DNA of 64,000 bases from Thiobacillus sp. SCUT-2 (GTDB lineage Bacteria; Pseudomonadota; Gammaproteobacteria; Burkholderiales; Thiobacillaceae). Positions 28,009 through 35,244 of the stretch are shown here, piece after piece (the stretch's first letter is position 1; every line of letters starts with the position of its first letter). Position numbers and translations under genes: made by a program. Under the pieces are notes generated by a model. The model had not been told where the DNA came from. It did no database searches and was given only the letters and a program-made list of their open reading frames with translations. The DNA lies in NCBI RefSeq assembly GCF_035621355.1, contig NZ_CP141769.1:1674001-1738000 (forward strand), written 5' to 3'.

Positions 28009-30225
28009 CTATTTCGTCGTGTAGACGAACACCCCGTCCCACCCTGCCGGCGGCGGTTGTGTCCGGAAGTGCGCGATGCGCTCAAGGTAGATATCGTACA
28101 ACGCCCGCGGGGCACGGCGGTTGAGCGCCCGCAGCGCCGCCTCGGCGGCATCCCAGTCCTGCTTCTGGTAGGCGGCGAACGCGGCCGCGAACGCAGCCGC
28201 GTCCTCGCGCACCGCTTCGGCGAGCGTGGCCATGGGCCCGAGTGGCTCGTAGATCGCGACCGGCGTCTCCTTGCCCTTGACGCGGACGACGTCGACTTTC
28301 ATGAAGGCATGCACCGGGTCGGCGTCGACCGTCGGCTGGGTGACGAGGATGCCGACGCCATATTGCTTCGTGATGCCTTCGAGGCGCGAGCCGAGGTTCA
28401 CCGCGTCGCCCATCACCGTGTACGACATGCGGAATTCCGAACCCATGTTGCCGACGCTCATGCGGCCGGTGTTGACGCCGATGCCGATCTTCAGCTCGGG
28501 CCAGCCGCGCGCGGCGAACTCGCGGTTCAGCTGCGGCAGCGCGGCCTGCATCGCGAGCGCGGTAGCGACCGCGCGGGTGGCGTGGTCGGCGAGGTCGACC
28601 GGCGCGTTCCAGAAGGCCATGATGGCGTCGCCGATGTACTTGTCGATGGTGCCGCGCTGCTCCTGGACGATGCGCGTCATCGTCGACAGGTAGGCGTTCA
28701 GCACCTCGGCGAGCTCGGTCGGCGGCAGCTTCTCGGAAAAATTCGTGAAGCCGCGGATATCGGAGAACAGCACGGTCATGTCGCGCGACTGTCCTTCCAT
28801 GGTGTAGTGCCCGGGGTCGCGGCTCATTTCGTCCGCCAGCTCCGGCGGCACGTACTGCCCGAACAGCCGGGTGATCTGGCGCTTGCTGCGTGTCGCCGCA
28901 AAGAAGCCATACGCGGTGTTGAGTCCGTACAGCCCGAAGACCGCAAGCATCGGAGCCGCCATCGGCACCACCCAGGACTTCGACCACGCCGCGGCGTAGG
29001 CCGCCAGCAGCAGCGCGAGCAGGGCGACCGTCGCGAGCAGGCCGACGATCGGCCCGACGCGCAGCAATACCAGCGTCAGCAGCGTGCCGAGCACGAGCAC
29101 CGCCAGCAGCCGCGCATCGCGTGCCCACGGCGGGGTGCTGCGGGTGGTGCCGTCGAGCATGCCCGCGATCAGATGGGCGTGGATCTCGACGCCGGGGAAG
29201 GCGTTGGAAAACGGCGTCACGCGCAGATCGGCGAGCCCCGGCGCGGTCGAGCCGACGAGCACGATGCGGTTTTCCAGCTGCGCCGGCGCCACCTTGCCCG
29301 CCAGCACCTGCGCGGCCGAAACATACGGGAACGGCGCGCCGGCGCGGTACGGCACGTACACGCTGCCGTCGCCGCTCAGCGGCACGCGGATGCCGCCGAC
29401 CTCGATCCACGGCGTCCGAAACGCACGACCGAGCAGCGACTCGCGCTCGACGCCGGCGCGCACCGCATCGCCGCCGAATGCGACCCGCAAGGTCGACGGC
29501 GCCAGCGCCAGGTAGTAGCCGGCGCCGAAGGGACTCAGCAGCGGCATCCGGCGCGCCGTGCCGTCCGGATCGGCGCGCATGTTGAAGAAGCCGGCACCTT
29601 CGGCGGCGCGCTGGAAGGCTGCCAGGTTGGCGCCATAGCCGGTCGGCGCCGGCAGTCCGGGGCGCAGCGGCGCGAACGCATCGGCGGGCAGTGCGGGGGC
29701 CGGCAGGGTGCCGGTCCGTTCGGTGCCGTAGCCCTGCGGCAGGAAGTAGTAGCCGAGCGACACCGGTCTACCGGCCAGGCTTTGGGCAAAGCGCGCGTCG
29801 AAGTCGAGGCGCGGCGCGAGCCGTCCGAAGGCTGCCTGGAATTCGCGGTTCCCTGCAAGATCGCGCCGTGCCAGCCGCCGGAGCGCATCGAGACCGGAGC
29901 TCGTGTCGGGCTCGGCGAACACCACGTCGAACCCCACCGCCGCGACGCCGTAGCGGTCGAACAGCTGGTTCATCAGGGCACTCATGGTGTCGCGGCTCCA
30001 GGGCCAGCGTCCGACCGCTTTCAGGCTCGCCTCGTCGATGTCGAGGATGGCCACGCGATCGTCGCTGCCGCCGGGCGCCGTGCGCTTGAGCCAGGCGTCA
30101 TACAGCCAGGCCTCCGCCCGCTGCAGCGGCGCGATGTCGATGGCGCCGGCGACATGCGCCGCGACCAGCATGACCAGCAGCGCAGACAGCCCCGCCTGCA
30201 CCAGCCGGGACGAAACGCGTCTCAC
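28009..30225 (-). CDS. CHASE2-domain class III adenylate cyclase
   Basis: 738 residues. An N-terminal helix and a large extracytoplasmic CHASE2 domain (about 45-345) are followed by three membrane helices and a C-terminal cyclase domain. The metal aspartates are D489 (LFSDIRGF) and D533 (YIGDAIMAF). The purine-selecting pair is K529 and T603 (SYTVMGDAVN), a Lys/Thr pattern of class IIIb adenylate cyclases, so cAMP rather than cGMP is predicted. It overlaps the M48 protease gene by 4 bases and abuts the MBL phosphodiesterase-like gene. Confidence 0.92.
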   Translation of the reverse strand: MRRVSSRLVQAGLSALLVMLVAAHVAGAIDIAPLQRAEAWLYDAWLKRTAPGGSDDRVAILDIDEASLKAVGRWPWSRDTMSALMNQLFDRYGVAAVGFDVVFAEPDTSSGLDALRRLARRDLAGNREFQAAFGRLAPRLDFDARFAQSLAGRPVSLGYYFLPQGYGTERTGTLPAPALPADAFAPLRPGLPAPTGYGANLAAFQRAAEGAGFFNMRADPDGTARRMPLLSPFGAGYYLALAPSTLRVAFGGDAVRAGVERESLLGRAFRTPWIEVGGIRVPLSGDGSVYVPYRAGAPFPYVSAAQVLAGKVAPAQLENRIVLVGSTAPGLADLRVTPFSNAFPGVEIHAHLIAGMLDGTTRSTPPWARDARLLAVLVLGTLLTLVLLRVGPIVGLLATVALLALLLAAYAAAWSKSWVVPMAAPMLAVFGLYGLNTAYGFFAATRSKRQITRLFGQYVPPELADEMSRDPGHYTMEGQSRDMTVLFSDIRGFTNFSEKLPPTELAEVLNAYLSTMTRIVQEQRGTIDKYIGDAIMAFWNAPVDLADHATRAVATALAMQAALPQLNREFAARGWPELKIGIGVNTGRMSVGNMGSEFRMSYTVMGDAVNLGSRLEGITKQYGVGILVTQPTVDADPVHAFMKVDVVRVKGKETPVAIYEPLGPMATLAEAVREDAAAFAAAFAAYQKQDWDAAEAALRALNRRAPRALYDIYLERIAHFRTQPPPAGWDGVFVYTTK

Positions 30226-31136
30226 CGGATGCGGTAGAAGCGGCCCGCCACGTCCTTGCCGTGGACGTCATCGAGACGGCTGCCGACGGCTTCGCCGAGC
30301 GCTGCCAGCCGGTCGGCCGGCAACGGATGCGTCTTGAACAGGAGACTGGTCCGGCTGTCCTTGGGCGGCAGGCCGGCAAGGTCCTGCAAGACGTCGGGCA
30401 GCCCCCAGGGGTCGTAGCCGGCGCGCGCGGCGAGCACGATGCCGAGGCGGTCGGCTTCGAACTCGGCGTTCTTGTCGAGGCTGCGCGCCATGATCTCGGC
30501 GCCGTTGCCGATGAGGTTCTGCACCACCTGGTCGCTGCCCTTCGCCTTGCTGCTCGCCGCCTGTCCGAGGGCGCCGATCAGGCTGGACTGCTTGAGCACC
30601 TTGAGGTGATGCTTCTTCGTCACGTGGGCGATTTCATGCGCCAGCACGCCGGCGAGTTCCGCCTCGTTGTCGAGGCGGCGGTACAAGCCCTTGGTGACGA
30701 AGACGTAGCCGCCCGGCGCGGCGAACGCGTTGATGTCCTCGGTGTCGAGCACGCCGAAGTGCCAGGTGATGTCCTTGCGTCCGCTCTGCAGGGCAACCCA
30801 CTCGCCGACCTGGTTGACGTAGCGCTGCAGCCTGTCGTCGTGCACCAGCGGCACGGCACCCAGCAGGTTGCCCGCGATCTGCCTGCCGATGCGCGTCTCC
30901 TCCTCGGGCGAGTAATCGCCGAACAGCGCGAAGCCGAGCTGCCCCGCGTCGATCTTCTGCTTGGCGGGCGGCTGGGTGGCGGCGCTCTGCGCGGCATCGG
31001 GTGCCGTCTGCGCCGGCTTCTTCTTGTTCAGTTCCTGGTTGATGCCTTCCTCGAGCAGCTTGCCGAAATCGAACGCCGCCGCCGTCCCGCTAACAGCCAC
31101 CAGTGCGGCGGCCAGAATCATCGGTCCGAATTTCAT
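30222..31136 (-). CDS. exported M48-family metalloprotease
   Basis: 304 residues. It has a signal peptide (MKFGPMILAAALVAVSGTAAA) and no lipobox. The zinc motif is HEIAH at 167-171 in LAGVLAHEIAHVTKKHH, and a later EFEADRLG supplies the third ligand. It resembles BepA/YcaL/LoiP-type periplasmic proteases that work on outer-membrane proteins. It lacks a TPR domain, so it is not full BepA. It overlaps the SH3 gene upstream and the adenylate cyclase downstream by 4 bases each, so all are coupled. Confidence 0.92.
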   Translation of the reverse strand: MKFGPMILAAALVAVSGTAAAFDFGKLLEEGINQELNKKKPAQTAPDAAQSAATQPPAKQKIDAGQLGFALFGDYSPEEETRIGRQIAGNLLGAVPLVHDDRLQRYVNQVGEWVALQSGRKDITWHFGVLDTEDINAFAAPGGYVFVTKGLYRRLDNEAELAGVLAHEIAHVTKKHHLKVLKQSSLIGALGQAASSKAKGSDQVVQNLIGNGAEIMARSLDKNAEFEADRLGIVLAARAGYDPWGLPDVLQDLAGLPPKDSRTSLLFKTHPLPADRLAALGEAVGSRLDDVHGKDVAGRFYRIR

Positions 31137-31663
31137 TCGTTGCCTCCCCACGGCGAACTCGATTGTGCCGGCTGCGGCGCGGGCAGCTCCCCGACCTTGG
31201 CCGTCTTCAGTCCCGCCTGCGCCGCGAAGCTGCGGGCGGCGGCAGGCGTTTCCTGCCACGCAGCCAGCCGCGCCAGCTCTTCGGCGTTGAATTTCGCCTG
31301 CTTCAGATCCTCGTCGTCGAGGCCGCGCAGGCCTGCCACGGCCACCACCCGGCTGGGGTCGGACTTCCTCGTCGCGGCGCCCACCACGTCGCCGAGGCCG
31401 GCGCCGCCGAGCCCGCCCGCCCCCGCACGCACCGAGAGCAGCCGGATCCAGCCCGTCGAACGGCCGGCACTCACGCGCAGCCAGCCCCCCTGCTTGGCGA
31501 GGATATTCACGCTGGTTCCCTTGGCGACGCTGCCCGCGAGCGGGGAGGCCGCATTGGGCTGGCTGTAGAGCTTGTCGTTGCGCAGGACCGTGCCGGGGGC
31601 CGCAAGCGCGGACGCAGCCGCGCCGAGCGCGAGCACCGCGACCAGAGTCTTGAATCGTTTCAT
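31133..31663 (-). CDS. exported SH3-like domain protein
   Basis: 176 residues from an ATG with AAGGAGA upstream. A signal peptide (MKRFKTLVAVLALGAAASALA) leads to a bacterial SH3 domain at about 25-80 (GTSVNILAKQGGWLRVSA). A Gly-rich linker and a helical tail follow. The SH3 domain may bind peptidoglycan or a partner protein. It is the first gene of the SH3-M48-cyclase-phosphodiesterase operon and shares a 99-base divergent region with the MCE operon. Confidence 0.85.
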   Translation of the reverse strand: MKRFKTLVAVLALGAAASALAAPGTVLRNDKLYSQPNAASPLAGSVAKGTSVNILAKQGGWLRVSAGRSTGWIRLLSVRAGAGGLGGAGLGDVVGAATRKSDPSRVVAVAGLRGLDDEDLKQAKFNAEELARLAAWQETPAAARSFAAQAGLKTAKVGELPAPQPAQSSSPWGGNE

Positions 31664-31762: not shown

Positions 31763-32557
31763 ATGACTCTGCTCGCGACATCGATCGAATCGCTCGGCGC
31801 CAAGGTCGTCGGCTGGTTCACCGTCGGCTACGGCATGTTCGCCTTCCTGGCCCGGGCCGCGCTGCTGCTGCTGGATCGCTCGACCTGGAACCGCGCCACC
31901 TTCGACGTCGTGGTGAAGCAGGTCTACTTTACCGCCGTGCAGATCCTGCATGTGTTCCTCGGCTACGCGCTGGTCATCTCCTGGCTCCTCATCAGCATCA
32001 TCCTCTCCACCGCGCGCGACTTCGGCCTCACCGAATTCGCCAGCGAGATGACGATCCGCACGCTGGTGCTGGAACTGCTGCCCTTCCTGACCGCGCTGTT
32101 CGTCGCCCTGCGCTCCGGCAGCGCGATCAACACCGAGGTCGCGCTGATGCAGGTCAACAACGAGTTGGATGCACTGGCGCACTGCAAGGTTCCGCCGCTG
32201 CAGTTCGAGTTCCTGCCGCGCCTGATCGGCGGCGTCGTCTCGGTCGTCACCCTGTCCGGGCTGGCCGGCCTGCTGGCCCTGCTGATCGGCTACCTTGCGA
32301 TCTACGGAACCAACGTCGCCGGCTTCGAACCCTATACCGCGACCATCGCGAAGATCTTCGACTTCCGGATCATGGCGGGGCTGCTCGTGAAATGCGCGCT
32401 GTTCGGGCTGGCCGTCACGCTGATCCCGGTCACCGCGGGGCTGGAGACGCCGAAGAAGCTCTTCATGGTGCCGGTCTCGGTGCTGCGCGGCATGATGCGG
32501 GTGTTTTTCGCCATCGTGGCGATCGAGGTGGTGTCATTAGCGCTCAAATACGTCTGA
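31763..32557 (+). CDS. MlaE-type ABC permease
   Basis: 264 residues with five to six membrane helices. It fits the MlaE/YrbE permease family, which moves lipids between inner and outer membranes together with MCE proteins. The N-terminal amphipathic helix (LATSIESLGAKVVGWF), the VKQVYFTAVQILHV region and the C-terminal RGMMRVFFAIVAIEVV helix are typical. It heads a four-gene operon with a degenerate ATPase-like protein, an MCE protein and a lipoprotein. No canonical ATPase gene is present in the window for it. Confidence 0.9.
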   Translation: MTLLATSIESLGAKVVGWFTVGYGMFAFLARAALLLLDRSTWNRATFDVVVKQVYFTAVQILHVFLGYALVISWLLISIILSTARDFGLTEFASEMTIRTLVLELLPFLTALFVALRSGSAINTEVALMQVNNELDALAHCKVPPLQFEFLPRLIGGVVSVVTLSGLAGLLALLIGYLAIYGTNVAGFEPYTATIAKIFDFRIMAGLLVKCALFGLAVTLIPVTAGLETPKKLFMVPVSVLRGMMRVFFAIVAIEVVSLALKYV

Positions 32558-32991
32558 TCGCATTCGACGACCGCGCCAGCCTGATGGCGGAGGTCGCGGC
32601 CCTGCCGGACGACGTCGCGCGCGTGGCGCTCGACCTGCCGTTGCGGGCCAACCTGTCGGCGCTCGACAACATCGCGCTGATCCCGATCTACCAGCGCCAT
32701 TCCGGCGTCGAGGAATCGAACCGGCAGGCGGAGCTGCTGCTGGAGCAACTCGGACATGCCGACATCGCGGCGCTGCGCGACCCGGACATGACGCCGGCCC
32801 AGCGCTTCGCCGCCAAGCTGGCGCGCGCGCTGATCCTCAGGCGGCCGCGCCTGGTCATCGACCGCCCCGGGGCCATGCTCTACGATGTGCCGTATCCGGC
32901 TTTCATCCGGGAACTCGCCGCACAGGCCGGGATGACGGGCACCTGGGAGATTTTCGACTTCCGCTGGAACCAGCCACTCTACGAAGCATGA
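32536..32991 (+). CDS. degenerate ABC ATPase-like protein lacking Walker A
   Basis: About 151 residues. The sequence resembles the second half of an MlaF-type ATPase. LPLRANLSALDNIALIPIY fits the region after the Q-loop, MTPAQRFAAKLARALILRR replaces LSGGQ and its helix, and RLVIDRP replaces Walker B with Arg at the catalytic Glu. There is no Walker A, and no room for it, since the permease ends at 32557. No ATG, GTG or TTG precedes 32584. Codon use shows coding from at least 32554, and GAGGTG lies 5 bases before an ATT at 32536, so the start is uncertain. It overlaps the MCE gene by 4 bases. Confidence 0.75.
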   Translation: MSAQIRLIAFDDRASLMAEVAALPDDVARVALDLPLRANLSALDNIALIPIYQRHSGVEESNRQAELLLEQLGHADIAALRDPDMTPAQRFAAKLARALILRRPRLVIDRPGAMLYDVPYPAFIRELAAQAGMTGTWEIFDFRWNQPLYEA

Positions 32992-33914
32992 ACAAACTGC
33001 ATTTCAAGGTCGGGCTGTTCGCCGTCGCCTCGCTGCTGCTGGCCGCCACATTCATCGTCTACCTGCTGCACGCGCGCGGCTTCTTCGAGAAGACCTTCCA
33101 CCTGCAGCTGGCGGCGTCCAGCGCGGACGGCGTCGCGCCGGGCGTTCCCGTGGTGTTTTCCGGCATCGAGATCGGCCGCGTCACCACGCTGGGCCTGAAC
33201 GATAACGGCGGCATCGTCATCCAGACCGAGTTCTCCGCGCGCAATGCGAAGTGGCTCAAGGAAAACAGCAGCTTCACGCTCGACAAGCCCATCGTCGGCG
33301 GCGCCAAGATCCGCGTGGATTCGCCCGACCTCGGCGCGCCCGCCCTGCCCGATCACGCCACCATGCTGCTGCTGAGTTCCGACATCACCAAGGAGCTTCC
33401 GGGGCTGGTCGAGCGCGTGCAGGCGATTCTCGCCAACCTCGAGCGCCTGACCCGCAAGGACGGTGAACTCGACGCCACGCTGGCCAATGCGAAGACGGTG
33501 ACGGGGCGCATGACCGGCGAGTACGGCATGCTAGAGGGCCTGCTCGGCAGCCCGGAAAAGGCGCGCACGGTCACGGACTCGCTCGCGCAGACCCGCGCCC
33601 TCATGACCCGGCTCGACAGCATGGCCGCCAAGACCGACCAGTGGCTGTTCGCAAACCAGGGCGTGGCCGAACAGACGCGCGAATCGCTGTCGCAGATCCG
33701 CCAGCTGCTGGCCGACGCCCAGTCGAGCCTGAAGAAGGCCGATACCGTCATGGCGAATGCCGTGGCCATTTCCGCCAACGTCAAGGACGGCACCCAGGAC
33801 CTCGCCCGCCTGCGCACCGAAATCGACGACGCCGTGCGCAAGGCGAACGCGCTCGTCAACGAGATCAACAGGAAATGGCCCTTTGCCCGCGAACCCGAGG
33901 TGAAGCTGCCGTGA
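32988..33914 (+). CDS. MCE/MlaD-family lipid-binding protein
   Basis: 308 residues. One N-terminal membrane anchor (about 6-27) precedes an MCE domain at about 38-120 (GVPVVFSGIEIGRVTTLGL). A long helical tail follows (DSLAQTRALMTRLDSMAAK; LRTEIDDAVRKANALVNEI). The periplasmic MCE domain carries lipids for the permease. The tail is longer than in E. coli MlaD and could form a helical bundle or tube across the periplasm. It overlaps its neighbours on both sides by 4 bases. Confidence 0.92.
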   Translation: MNKLHFKVGLFAVASLLLAATFIVYLLHARGFFEKTFHLQLAASSADGVAPGVPVVFSGIEIGRVTTLGLNDNGGIVIQTEFSARNAKWLKENSSFTLDKPIVGGAKIRVDSPDLGAPALPDHATMLLLSSDITKELPGLVERVQAILANLERLTRKDGELDATLANAKTVTGRMTGEYGMLEGLLGSPEKARTVTDSLAQTRALMTRLDSMAAKTDQWLFANQGVAEQTRESLSQIRQLLADAQSSLKKADTVMANAVAISANVKDGTQDLARLRTEIDDAVRKANALVNEINRKWPFAREPEVKLP

Positions 33915-34582
33915 GAGCCCTGCTCGCTGTCGCTTCCCTGCTCCTGGCCGCCTGCGGGACCGGCGGCCCGCCGCCGCCGGACTGGAAGAGCGATGCCGCC
34001 GATCTGGTCGAGCGCTACCAGAAGCACGCCCTGCTGGGCGAGAACACCCTCGCCGAGCGCTACTTCCAGCAGGCGGTCGCCGCGACCGGAGGCGCGGGCC
34101 GCATCGGCGAGACCGCCCGCCTGTGGCTGGTGCACTGCGCCACCCGCCGCGCCATGCTGATCGACGATGCCTGCACGGAGTACGCGGAGCTTGCCGCCGC
34201 CGCCCCCGACGCGGCCGACGACGCCTACTTCCGCTTCCTGACCCTGCGGTGGCAAGGACTCGACCCCGCCCGGCTGCCGCCCCAGCATCGCGAACTGCTG
34301 CGCGCACCGCCGGATGCGCGCAACCTGGCCCTCGATGCGGTCACCGATCCGCTCGCGCGCCTGCTGGACGCCAGCCTGCTGGTCATGCGCGGCGAAGCCG
34401 ACCGCGCCACCCTGTCGCTCGCCACGGAAACGGCATCGGCCCAGGGCTGGCGCCAGCCCCTGCTGACCTACCTGAAGCTCCAACGGAGGCAGGCCGATGC
34501 CAGCGGCGACGCCACCGCCCGGGCCCGGCTCGACCGGCGCATCCGGCTGGTGGAAGAGGCCCTGTCGGCGGCAGCCCGATAA
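33911..34582 (+). CDS. lipoprotein of the MCE operon
   Basis: 223 residues from a GTG that overlaps the MCE stop (GTGA). The lipobox is LLAAC with the lipidated C15, and the next residue is Gly, which favours outer-membrane sorting. The rest is helical with paired repeats like TPR (DLVERYQKHALLGENTLAER; ETARLWLVHCATRRAML). It lacks the ABC_trans_aux (PqiC-like) signature common in MCE operons. A role as the outer-membrane end of the transport path is inferred from position only. Confidence 0.8.
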   Translation: MRALLAVASLLLAACGTGGPPPPDWKSDAADLVERYQKHALLGENTLAERYFQQAVAATGGAGRIGETARLWLVHCATRRAMLIDDACTEYAELAAAAPDAADDAYFRFLTLRWQGLDPARLPPQHRELLRAPPDARNLALDAVTDPLARLLDASLLVMRGEADRATLSLATETASAQGWRQPLLTYLKLQRRQADASGDATARARLDRRIRLVEEALSAAAR

Positions 34583-34734: not shown

Positions 34735-35244
34735 ATGAAATACGCTTCGATCGCGCTGGCCGCCCTGGCCGCATTTGCATCTGCCGCCCACGCTGCGCCG
34801 GCCATGATGTCCCCCGAGTGGACCGCCCAGGCGTGCGACGCCTGGAACAAGGATGCCACGCTGGCCAACGGCCTCGGCGAAAAGTGGATCAAGAACGACA
34901 AGGGCCGCGGCTACAAGATCATCCACCTCTACCGCACCGACTGCGGCGAAGCGACCCAGACCGAACTGAAGATCGTGGCCAAGGAAGGCAAGGCCATCTG
35001 CGTCTACGGCGGCGCGGTGCAGAACCCGCGGATGGACTACGCCGTCGACTACACGATGCACGCCACCACCGATCGCTGGGACGAAATGGGCGCCGGCGAG
35101 TATGGCCCGATGAAGGCCATGATGTTCGGCCGCCTCAAGTTCACCGGCCCGAAGATGGAAGCGATGAGCGTGATGGGCCCGTTCGAGGCCTTCCTCCGCC
35201 TGCCGGGCAAGATCCCCGGCGACAAGGCCTGCCCCGCCAAGTAA
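34735..35244 (+). CDS. exported SCP2-like sterol/lipid-binding domain protein
   Basis: 169 residues with a strong AGGAGGAG site and a signal peptide (MKYASIALAALAAFASAAHA). The middle resembles an SCP2 fold: MDYAVDYTMHATTDRWDEM, then YGPMKAMMFGRLKFTG, where the 'GKLK(F/I)xG' strand is typical. SCP2 domains hold hydrophobic ligands. A periplasmic form next to an MCE lipid transporter suggests a lipid role, but it has its own promoter-like region and terminator, so it is probably a separate unit. Two pairs of cysteines may form disulfides. Confidence 0.75.
   Translation: MKYASIALAALAAFASAAHAAPAMMSPEWTAQACDAWNKDATLANGLGEKWIKNDKGRGYKIIHLYRTDCGEATQTELKIVAKEGKAICVYGGAVQNPRMDYAVDYTMHATTDRWDEMGAGEYGPMKAMMFGRLKFTGPKMEAMSVMGPFEAFLRLPGKIPGDKACPAK

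Follow-up and report, generated by a model that had tools for sequence, protein, structure and literature searches.

In E. coli MlaFEDB, MlaF is contacted through a cytoplasmic coupling helix, which lies between the second and third transmembrane segments (TM2 and TM3), according to the accessible part of PMC7790496. The accessible part of PMC12436622 describes the ATPase of MpcEFDA as well conserved and states that PqiA has no ATPase domain. In this study, we found that Thiobacillus sp. SCUT-2, whose genome is a single contig of 3.01 Mb, contains an operon for a further MlaE-family permease, MlaE3, in which the place of the ATPase is taken by a short pseudo-ATPase that we call psF. The operon lies in a window of 64,000 nucleotides (nt), positions 1,674,001 to 1,738,000 of contig NZ_CP141769.1, and coordinates below are those of the window unless they carry the prefix C1. 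The coupling helix is conserved in the MlaE3 permeases that have psF, and this conservation is lost in their relatives without it. We consider it reasonably probable that psF acts as a structural clasp on MlaE3, in an MCE system that has no motor.

psF and its operon

The preliminary description of this DNA had named four overlapping genes, for an MlaE permease, an ATPase-like protein, an MCE protein and a lipoprotein, and this is the arrangement found at the same place. The order is MlaE3, psF, MCE3 and Lip3, all on the forward strand, with overlaps of 22, 4 and 4 nt between consecutive genes. The features of the operon are as follows.

31763..32557, forward: MlaE3, an MlaE-family permease of 264 amino acids (PF02405, 134.8 bits, cut-off 22.5)
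32132..32191, forward: coupling helix segment of MlaE3, residues 124-143, placed by alignment to MlaE1 and MlaE2, its role taken from the accessible part of PMC7790496
32450..32509, forward: putatively cytoplasmic TM4-TM5 segment of MlaE3, residues 230-249, with the biggest drop in conservation among psF-less relatives (topology from the same part of PMC7790496)
32525..32531, forward: GAGGTGG, a Shine-Dalgarno-like sequence within mlaE3
32536..32991, forward: psF, a pseudo-ATPase of 151 amino acids with an ATT start, an MlaF derivative by comparison of profile, fold and motifs
32791..32802, forward: TPAQ, at the ABC signature position of psF by alignment
32848..32868, forward: RLVIDRP, the Walker B of psF, with Arg in place of the catalytic Glu (alignment; 64 named loci)
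32988..33914, forward: MCE3, 308 amino acids, a single MCE domain followed by a long helical tail (PF02470, 32.4 bits, cut-off 25.1)
33911..34582, forward: Lip3, a lipoprotein of 223 amino acids with a GTG start and an LAAC lipobox, whose Cys15 is invariant in an alignment of 24 sequences

By profile and by predicted fold, psF is a derivative of the ATP-binding cassette (ABC) ATPases. The match of PF00005 to psF is weak (E 0.069, 14.2 bits, below the cut-off of 25), and this family reaches E 0.1 or better in 10 of 28 psF homologues, at best 5.9e-4. A psF family profile of 28 sequences matched ABC ATPases in the PDB with a best E of 2.3e-9, and hhalign of psF against an MlaF-type alignment (A4, the clade of the orphan MlaF described below) gave 92.5% and E 4.9e-7. 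The best of five AlphaFold models of psF, with a predicted local distance difference test (pLDDT) score of 89.6 and a predicted template-modelling (pTM) score of 0.87, retrieved ABC ATPases with Foldseek (E 2.4e-8, template-modelling score 0.70 by query) and matched the MlaF chain 6xgz_E at E 9.1e-6. The likeness to MlaF and other ABC ATPases that the preliminary description had proposed to look for was therefore found by profile and by fold. In the model, the elements run strand-helix-strand, a helical part, and strand-helix-strand-helix, so that the P-loop unit seems to have been rebuilt without the loop instead of plainly cut off. An N-terminal ATPase half just upstream was considered and rejected, as the frame upstream of the ATT runs within mlaE3 and contains no Walker A.

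The residues for binding and hydrolysis of ATP are absent from psF. As had been read beforehand, psF of the window has no Walker A, TPAQ instead of LSGGQ and Arg instead of the catalytic Glu. Walker A is missing in 32 of 32 genomes and in all 64 named loci, two sets that overlap; the named loci come from a scan with one peptide pattern, which is hence not exhaustive. Of the named loci, 61 have Arg directly after the Walker B acid, three have His and none has Glu. The preliminary description had also credited psF with a stretch from the Q-loop to Walker B. Such a stretch exists, albeit with other limits: the hhalign alignment pairs psF 36-146 with residues 98-209 of the orphan MlaF, from just past the Q-loop to the switch region, and alignment with the MlaF-like proteins of the genome shows the Q-loop Gln to be lost along with the switch His. 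Despite these losses, 18 positions are invariant in 28 diverse psF sequences, and these invariant residues of its own suggest that psF seems to be under selection for something besides ATP.

Distribution of psF and its psF-less relatives

Whole psF was found in 31 of 35 same-genus genomes, with an identity of 72-84% across the genus; one more copy is truncated at a contig end, and the three genomes that miss it are 81, 84 and 90% complete. A full-length MlaF broken by sequencing error or frameshift, which would have undone the preliminary description, was rejected on this count and on the conservation of psF across the order sample. In that sample, psF is present in 32 of 399 genomes, with at least 119 bits in each, the other matches listed reaching 43.2 bits at most. 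Among 398 genomes of the phylum, it scored at least 190 bits in just two, both of its own order, and the remaining matches had at most 54 bits and lay in frames of at least 231 amino acids. No match to psF or to psF-less MlaE3 was found on plasmids.

The named loci include Thiobacillus, Sulfuriferula, Parasulfuritortus, Tepidiphilus, Hydrogenophilus and metagenome-assembled genomes of Gallionellaceae, among others. Beside psF they contain MlaE3 (59 of 64), MCE3 (64) and Lip3 (63), and the sole locus without Lip3, L125, is near a contig end. The four-gene order, for which a search in other genomes had been suggested, thus recurs with MlaE3 by psF in 59 of the 64. This recurrence, together with the loss of motifs, supports the earlier proposal of a non-catalytic MlaF derivative in a distinct and conserved class of MCE operons.

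In the other five named loci, MlaE3 is not adjacent to psF. Three of these (genomes G235, G164 and G354) keep MlaE3 elsewhere, next to SH3 and M48 genes that resemble the ones in the window, and loss of MlaE3 was ruled out in these three genomes searched, L129 and L134 being outside that check. An insertion or rearrangement parts MlaE3 from psF-MCE-Lip at L168, L169, L170/L171, L121, L136 and L142, where the same genome retains both parts.

MlaE3 itself is more widespread than psF. At E 1e-60 its profile identified 57 of 399 genomes of the order, 32 with psF and 25 without; the handles are the same as in the psF scan, and the two scans apparently share one draw. All 32 psF genomes of the sample hold MlaE3 with at least 311 bits, and among the 25 psF-less genomes G275 reaches 323 bits and the rest 207-304. 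At E 1e-30, MlaE3 was found in 10 of 299 phylum genomes, all of its own order. The 25 psF-less neighbourhoods, and four weaker ones, consist of MlaE3-MCE-Lip with neither an ATPase nor psF between (29/29). Among the psF and psF-less loci examined, a complete ATPase gene was seen inside none of the MlaE3 operons. Of 77 psF loci, only L121 has an ABC ATPase gene nearby, 2.6 kb upstream, and by eye it reads as an exporter-type fusion. A single psF-less locus, L230, has such a gene; it immediately precedes mlaE3 and adjoins the end of a permease-like frame, and we take the gene and this frame to be an unrelated pair of the nitrate/taurine type.

In the tree, MlaE3 forms one clade against MlaE1 and MlaE2, the other two MlaE types of the genome (100/100). 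In the free tree, the psF-less permeases are nested among the psF-containing ones, and the enclosing node has a support of 98/98. With the two cytoplasmic segments masked, the starred branches still need more than one change, and one psF-containing permease (L075) falls inside the psF-less group. Loss of psF instead of gain is favoured, not proven, also because the operon order is common to MlaE-MlaF-MCE-lipoprotein systems.

The coupling helix and the role of psF

Conservation of the coupling helix was measured as the mean pairwise identity over MlaE3 residues 124-143 (20 residues) divided by the identity of the rest of the core. This ratio is 1.12 in MlaE1 (n=19), 1.24 in MlaE2 (n=12) and 1.08 in psF-containing MlaE3 (n=16, the near-copy L072 dropped), and it is 0.57 in psF-less MlaE3 (n=29), where the helix ranks 191 of 196 windows along the protein; with the first 16 psF-less sequences it was 0.68. 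At a matched overall identity of 0.45-0.55, identity within the helix is 0.56 with psF (45 pairs) and 0.28 without it (47 pairs). Furthermore, when the windows are ranked by their drop between the groups, the first six all fall within residues 118-142 or 229-251 of MlaE3. Residues 230-249 would be the other cytoplasmic turn, TM4-TM5, because of the topology published in PMC7790496, as given in its accessible part. Selective decay of both cytoplasmic segments in the absence of psF is what is expected if psF is their partner and nothing replaces it.

The genome contains three MlaE and three close MlaF-like ATPases, which score at least 190 bits when searched with MlaF2, against 124 for the ABC ATPase that follows. 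By eye, MlaF1 is in a canonical-looking mla operon, and the MlaF2 operon (C1:330701) reads as STAS-MlaE, MlaF2, MCE and a PqiC-like lipoprotein. The third is an unlinked MlaF, of the kind that the preliminary description had advised looking for, at C1:1521849-1522574 (L275 4772-5596, minus strand), with an adjacent gene that looks like one for 2-oxoglutarate dehydrogenase E2. No MlaE was found within 11 kb around this orphan, nor in 1.5 kb on either side of its six relatives, and in all seven the switch His is replaced by Tyr (VVTYD in the orphan). At E 1e-138, 47 of the 399 order genomes have the orphan clade. They comprise 16 of the 57 genomes with MlaE3, among these 11 of the 32 with psF, and 31 of the 342 without MlaE3. 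Only six candidates were scored per genome for this count. Four of the scores, at 463-468 bits, are borderline, and a weaker MlaE3 is present in at least one of the 342 genomes, G055. The orphan is thus enriched with MlaE3 without being obligatory, and kinship alone may explain the enrichment. With just 16 of 57 genomes having it, the orphan was rejected as an obligate partner of MlaE3. The earlier suggestion of an ATPase encoded elsewhere in the role of MlaF therefore finds little favour, and a trans-acting MlaF would also be expected to keep the coupling helix conserved, whereas the helix decays without psF. The alternative offered with it, that the complex works without ATP hydrolysis by this subunit, appears to fit better.

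A division of labour, in which psF occupies one coupling helix of an MlaE3 dimer and a full MlaF, be it MlaF1, MlaF2 or the orphan, occupies the second, is a doubtful alternative. It would draw on three full MlaF-like ATPases, the orphan among them having no adjoining MlaE, and on the intact coupling helix of psF-containing MlaE3, and mycobacteria provide a precedent in the one MceG that serves Mce1 and Mce4 (PMC9947336, accessible part). However, only those 11 of 32 psF genomes have the orphan clade, the helix has decayed in the psF-less branch despite the presence of MlaF1 with its own MlaE in 7 of 7 psF-less genomes tested, and psF has no P-loop. An ATP sandwich dimer needs a P-loop.

The start codon of psF bears on another alternative. 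No ATG, GTG or TTG is present at the start of the psF frame, which begins at ATT 32536. This ATT, 22 nt ahead of the end of mlaE3, was found at 32 of 32 same-genus loci and at 53 of the 59 named loci with linked MlaE3; the other six have ATG instead, four of them 4 nt before the end of mlaE3 and two 4 nt after it. In 6 of the 53 ATT loci, the codon at -4 (CTA, ATA or GTA) is not a usual start. The mlaE3 Leu codon that overlaps the ATT is TTA in 48 of the 59 loci, and TTA is rare elsewhere in these genes (29 of 2345 Leu codons, 1.2%). In E. coli, AUU starts are known for only two genes, and initiation factor 3 (IF3) discriminates against the AUU start of the gene that encodes it, as stated in the accessible part of PMC9410913. 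From the conserved ATT inside an otherwise rare codon, and from the rarity of such IF3-discriminated starts, one could argue that psF regulates MlaE3 or assists in its assembly, similar to MlaB, and that the AUU start and the 22-nt overlap limit its amount and tie it to MlaE3 translation. Yet a simple reason for the AUU is the overlap with mlaE3 itself, because NTG followed by A would give TGA in the mlaE3 frame, and such a regulator explains the coupling-helix result no better than a clasp does, which makes this role improbable. That psF is a decaying, functionless relic, as its absence from related genomes with the same core operon might suggest, is hardly credible in view of its 72-84% identity across the genus, its 18 invariant positions in 28 sequences, the lack of an internal stop in any strong-scoring match of the same-genus and order scans, and its retention in three genomes after parting from MlaE3.

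Thus, we favour a clasp on MlaE3, and from the operon we infer the following assembly and contacts. The ancestor would have been an MlaE-MlaF-MCE-lipoprotein transporter, the motor of which has since decayed. Two MlaE3 would form the lipid gate of the inner membrane, the MCE3 ring with its helical stalk would span the periplasm, and Lip3 would dock MCE3 at the outer membrane. psF would be what is left of MlaF in compact form, with the helical subdomain and the latter half of the core retained and the ATP-binding residues gone. It would sit on the coupling helix of MlaE3 and act there as a structural clasp or stabilise the gate, probably clasping the helix without catalysis. Lipids may then move without ATP hydrolysis at MlaE3, either down a gradient or with acceptors as the driving force. 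In the large related branch where psF is absent and conservation of the coupling helix is lost, the three remaining proteins would suffice, and the MlaE3 branch of MCE systems probably runs without a dedicated ATPase. For the full course of events, the chances seem to us about even: a betaproteobacterial MlaE branch would have become ATP-free as its ATPase first shrank to a nucleotide-blind clasp on the coupling helix and then vanished; the helix would have decayed after that, and a former ABC transporter would be left as a passive or gradient-driven lipid conduit of three proteins across the envelope.

Several points weigh against the clasp. The 20-residue helix window alone ranks 21 of 196 for the drop between groups (0.33; median 0.10), and the psF-less group is more divergent overall, with an identity of 0.47 against 0.55 in the rest of the core. 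Approximately unbiased (AU) tests do not reject the psF-containing permeases as a single clade (p 0.09, or 0.43 without the long-branched L071), and the MlaE3 trees have long branches and drew a program warning. Just one AlphaFold model of psF is confident, the other four having pLDDT of only 55.4-69.7. The genome also holds two MlaF with their own MlaE plus the orphan, and a real MlaF could still bind to MlaE3 next to psF, because psF keeps an ABC-like fold and the coupling helix is intact where psF is present.

Neighbouring genes and known MCE systems

The other proteins of the operon have features that matter for comparison. PF02405 is the only Pfam match of MlaE3 at E <= 1, which leaves no STAS match. 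Lip3 matches no Pfam family above cut-off, 24 Lip3 sequences gave no PqiC-type family (the best score of any family being E 0.027), and sequence searches with Lip3 gave no match worth naming. The C-terminus of MCE3 (33870-33911) carries N.KWPF...E.KLP, which is conserved in most homologues listed, with psF present or not. On the reverse strand, the divergent neighbours at 28009-31660 encode an SH3-domain protein (47 of 64 named loci), an M48 peptidase (45 of 64) and a CHASE2 adenylate/guanylate cyclase (50 of 64). Just downstream of Lip3 lies one further gene.

34735..35244, forward: SCP2-domain protein with a signal peptide by eye, a possible lipid carrier (PF02036, E 9.9e-8)

This protein is present at 51 of the 64 named loci and may be a periplasmic lipid carrier; among psF-less and split loci only L129 shows it, most of these stretches holding little downstream sequence.

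Whether MCE transporters depend on ATP, and how the direction of lipid flow from one membrane to the other is determined, is in our judgement a question for envelope biology. The natural series of a permease with an ATPase, with a pseudo-ATPase and with nothing separates the role of the motor from those of the permease and the MCE ring. If the proposed course of events is true, an ABC transporter would here have become a non-ABC conduit, which is rare, and the intermediate would survive to this day in environmental bacteria open to direct study. Searches of the open-access literature, by titles and the openings of abstracts, showed no description of a pseudo-ATPase in an MCE operon or of an ATPase-free MlaE system.

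Among described systems, Mpc of Brucella (MpcEFDA) is alike in being a four-gene operon, with a permease, a slot for the ATPase, a long MCE protein and MpcA as the fourth protein; according to the accessible part of PMC12436622, however, the ATPase of Mpc is complete and of the MlaF type, and the Mpc permease carries a STAS domain, where the present operon has psF in the slot and an MlaE3 without a STAS match. The second MCE system of this genome (C1:330701), named by eye, resembles Mpc. E. coli MlaFEDB shares the MlaE-family permease with its coupling helix and the single-domain MCE protein (PMC7790496, accessible part). In contrast to MlaFEDB, the MlaE3 operon has no catalytic MlaF and no MlaB, and its MCE3 has a long helical tail and a lipoprotein beside it.

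The MlaDE clusters that a survey counts beside MlaDEF are similar, but in the accessible part of that survey (PMC10665443) the reason for MlaDE is uncertain annotation of MlaF, and a pseudo-ATPase or loss of the motor is not described there. A single ATPase, MceG, is common to the two transporters Mce1 and Mce4; it is a working ATPase required for transport according to the accessible part of PMC9947336, whereas no conserved trans ATPase was found for MlaE3. PqiABC also combines an MCE protein, an outer-membrane lipoprotein and an inner-membrane partner without an ATPase domain, as described in the accessible parts of PMC12436622 and PMC10897342. Unlike in PqiABC, the permease here belongs to PF02405, and Lip3 has no PqiC-type family. 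LetAB is grouped with PqiABC as a comparable system. To our knowledge, the gene for MceG lies outside the Mce operons, and PqiA is not of the MlaE family. In the MlaE3 operon, it is an ABC-type permease that has seemingly reached the ATPase-free state.

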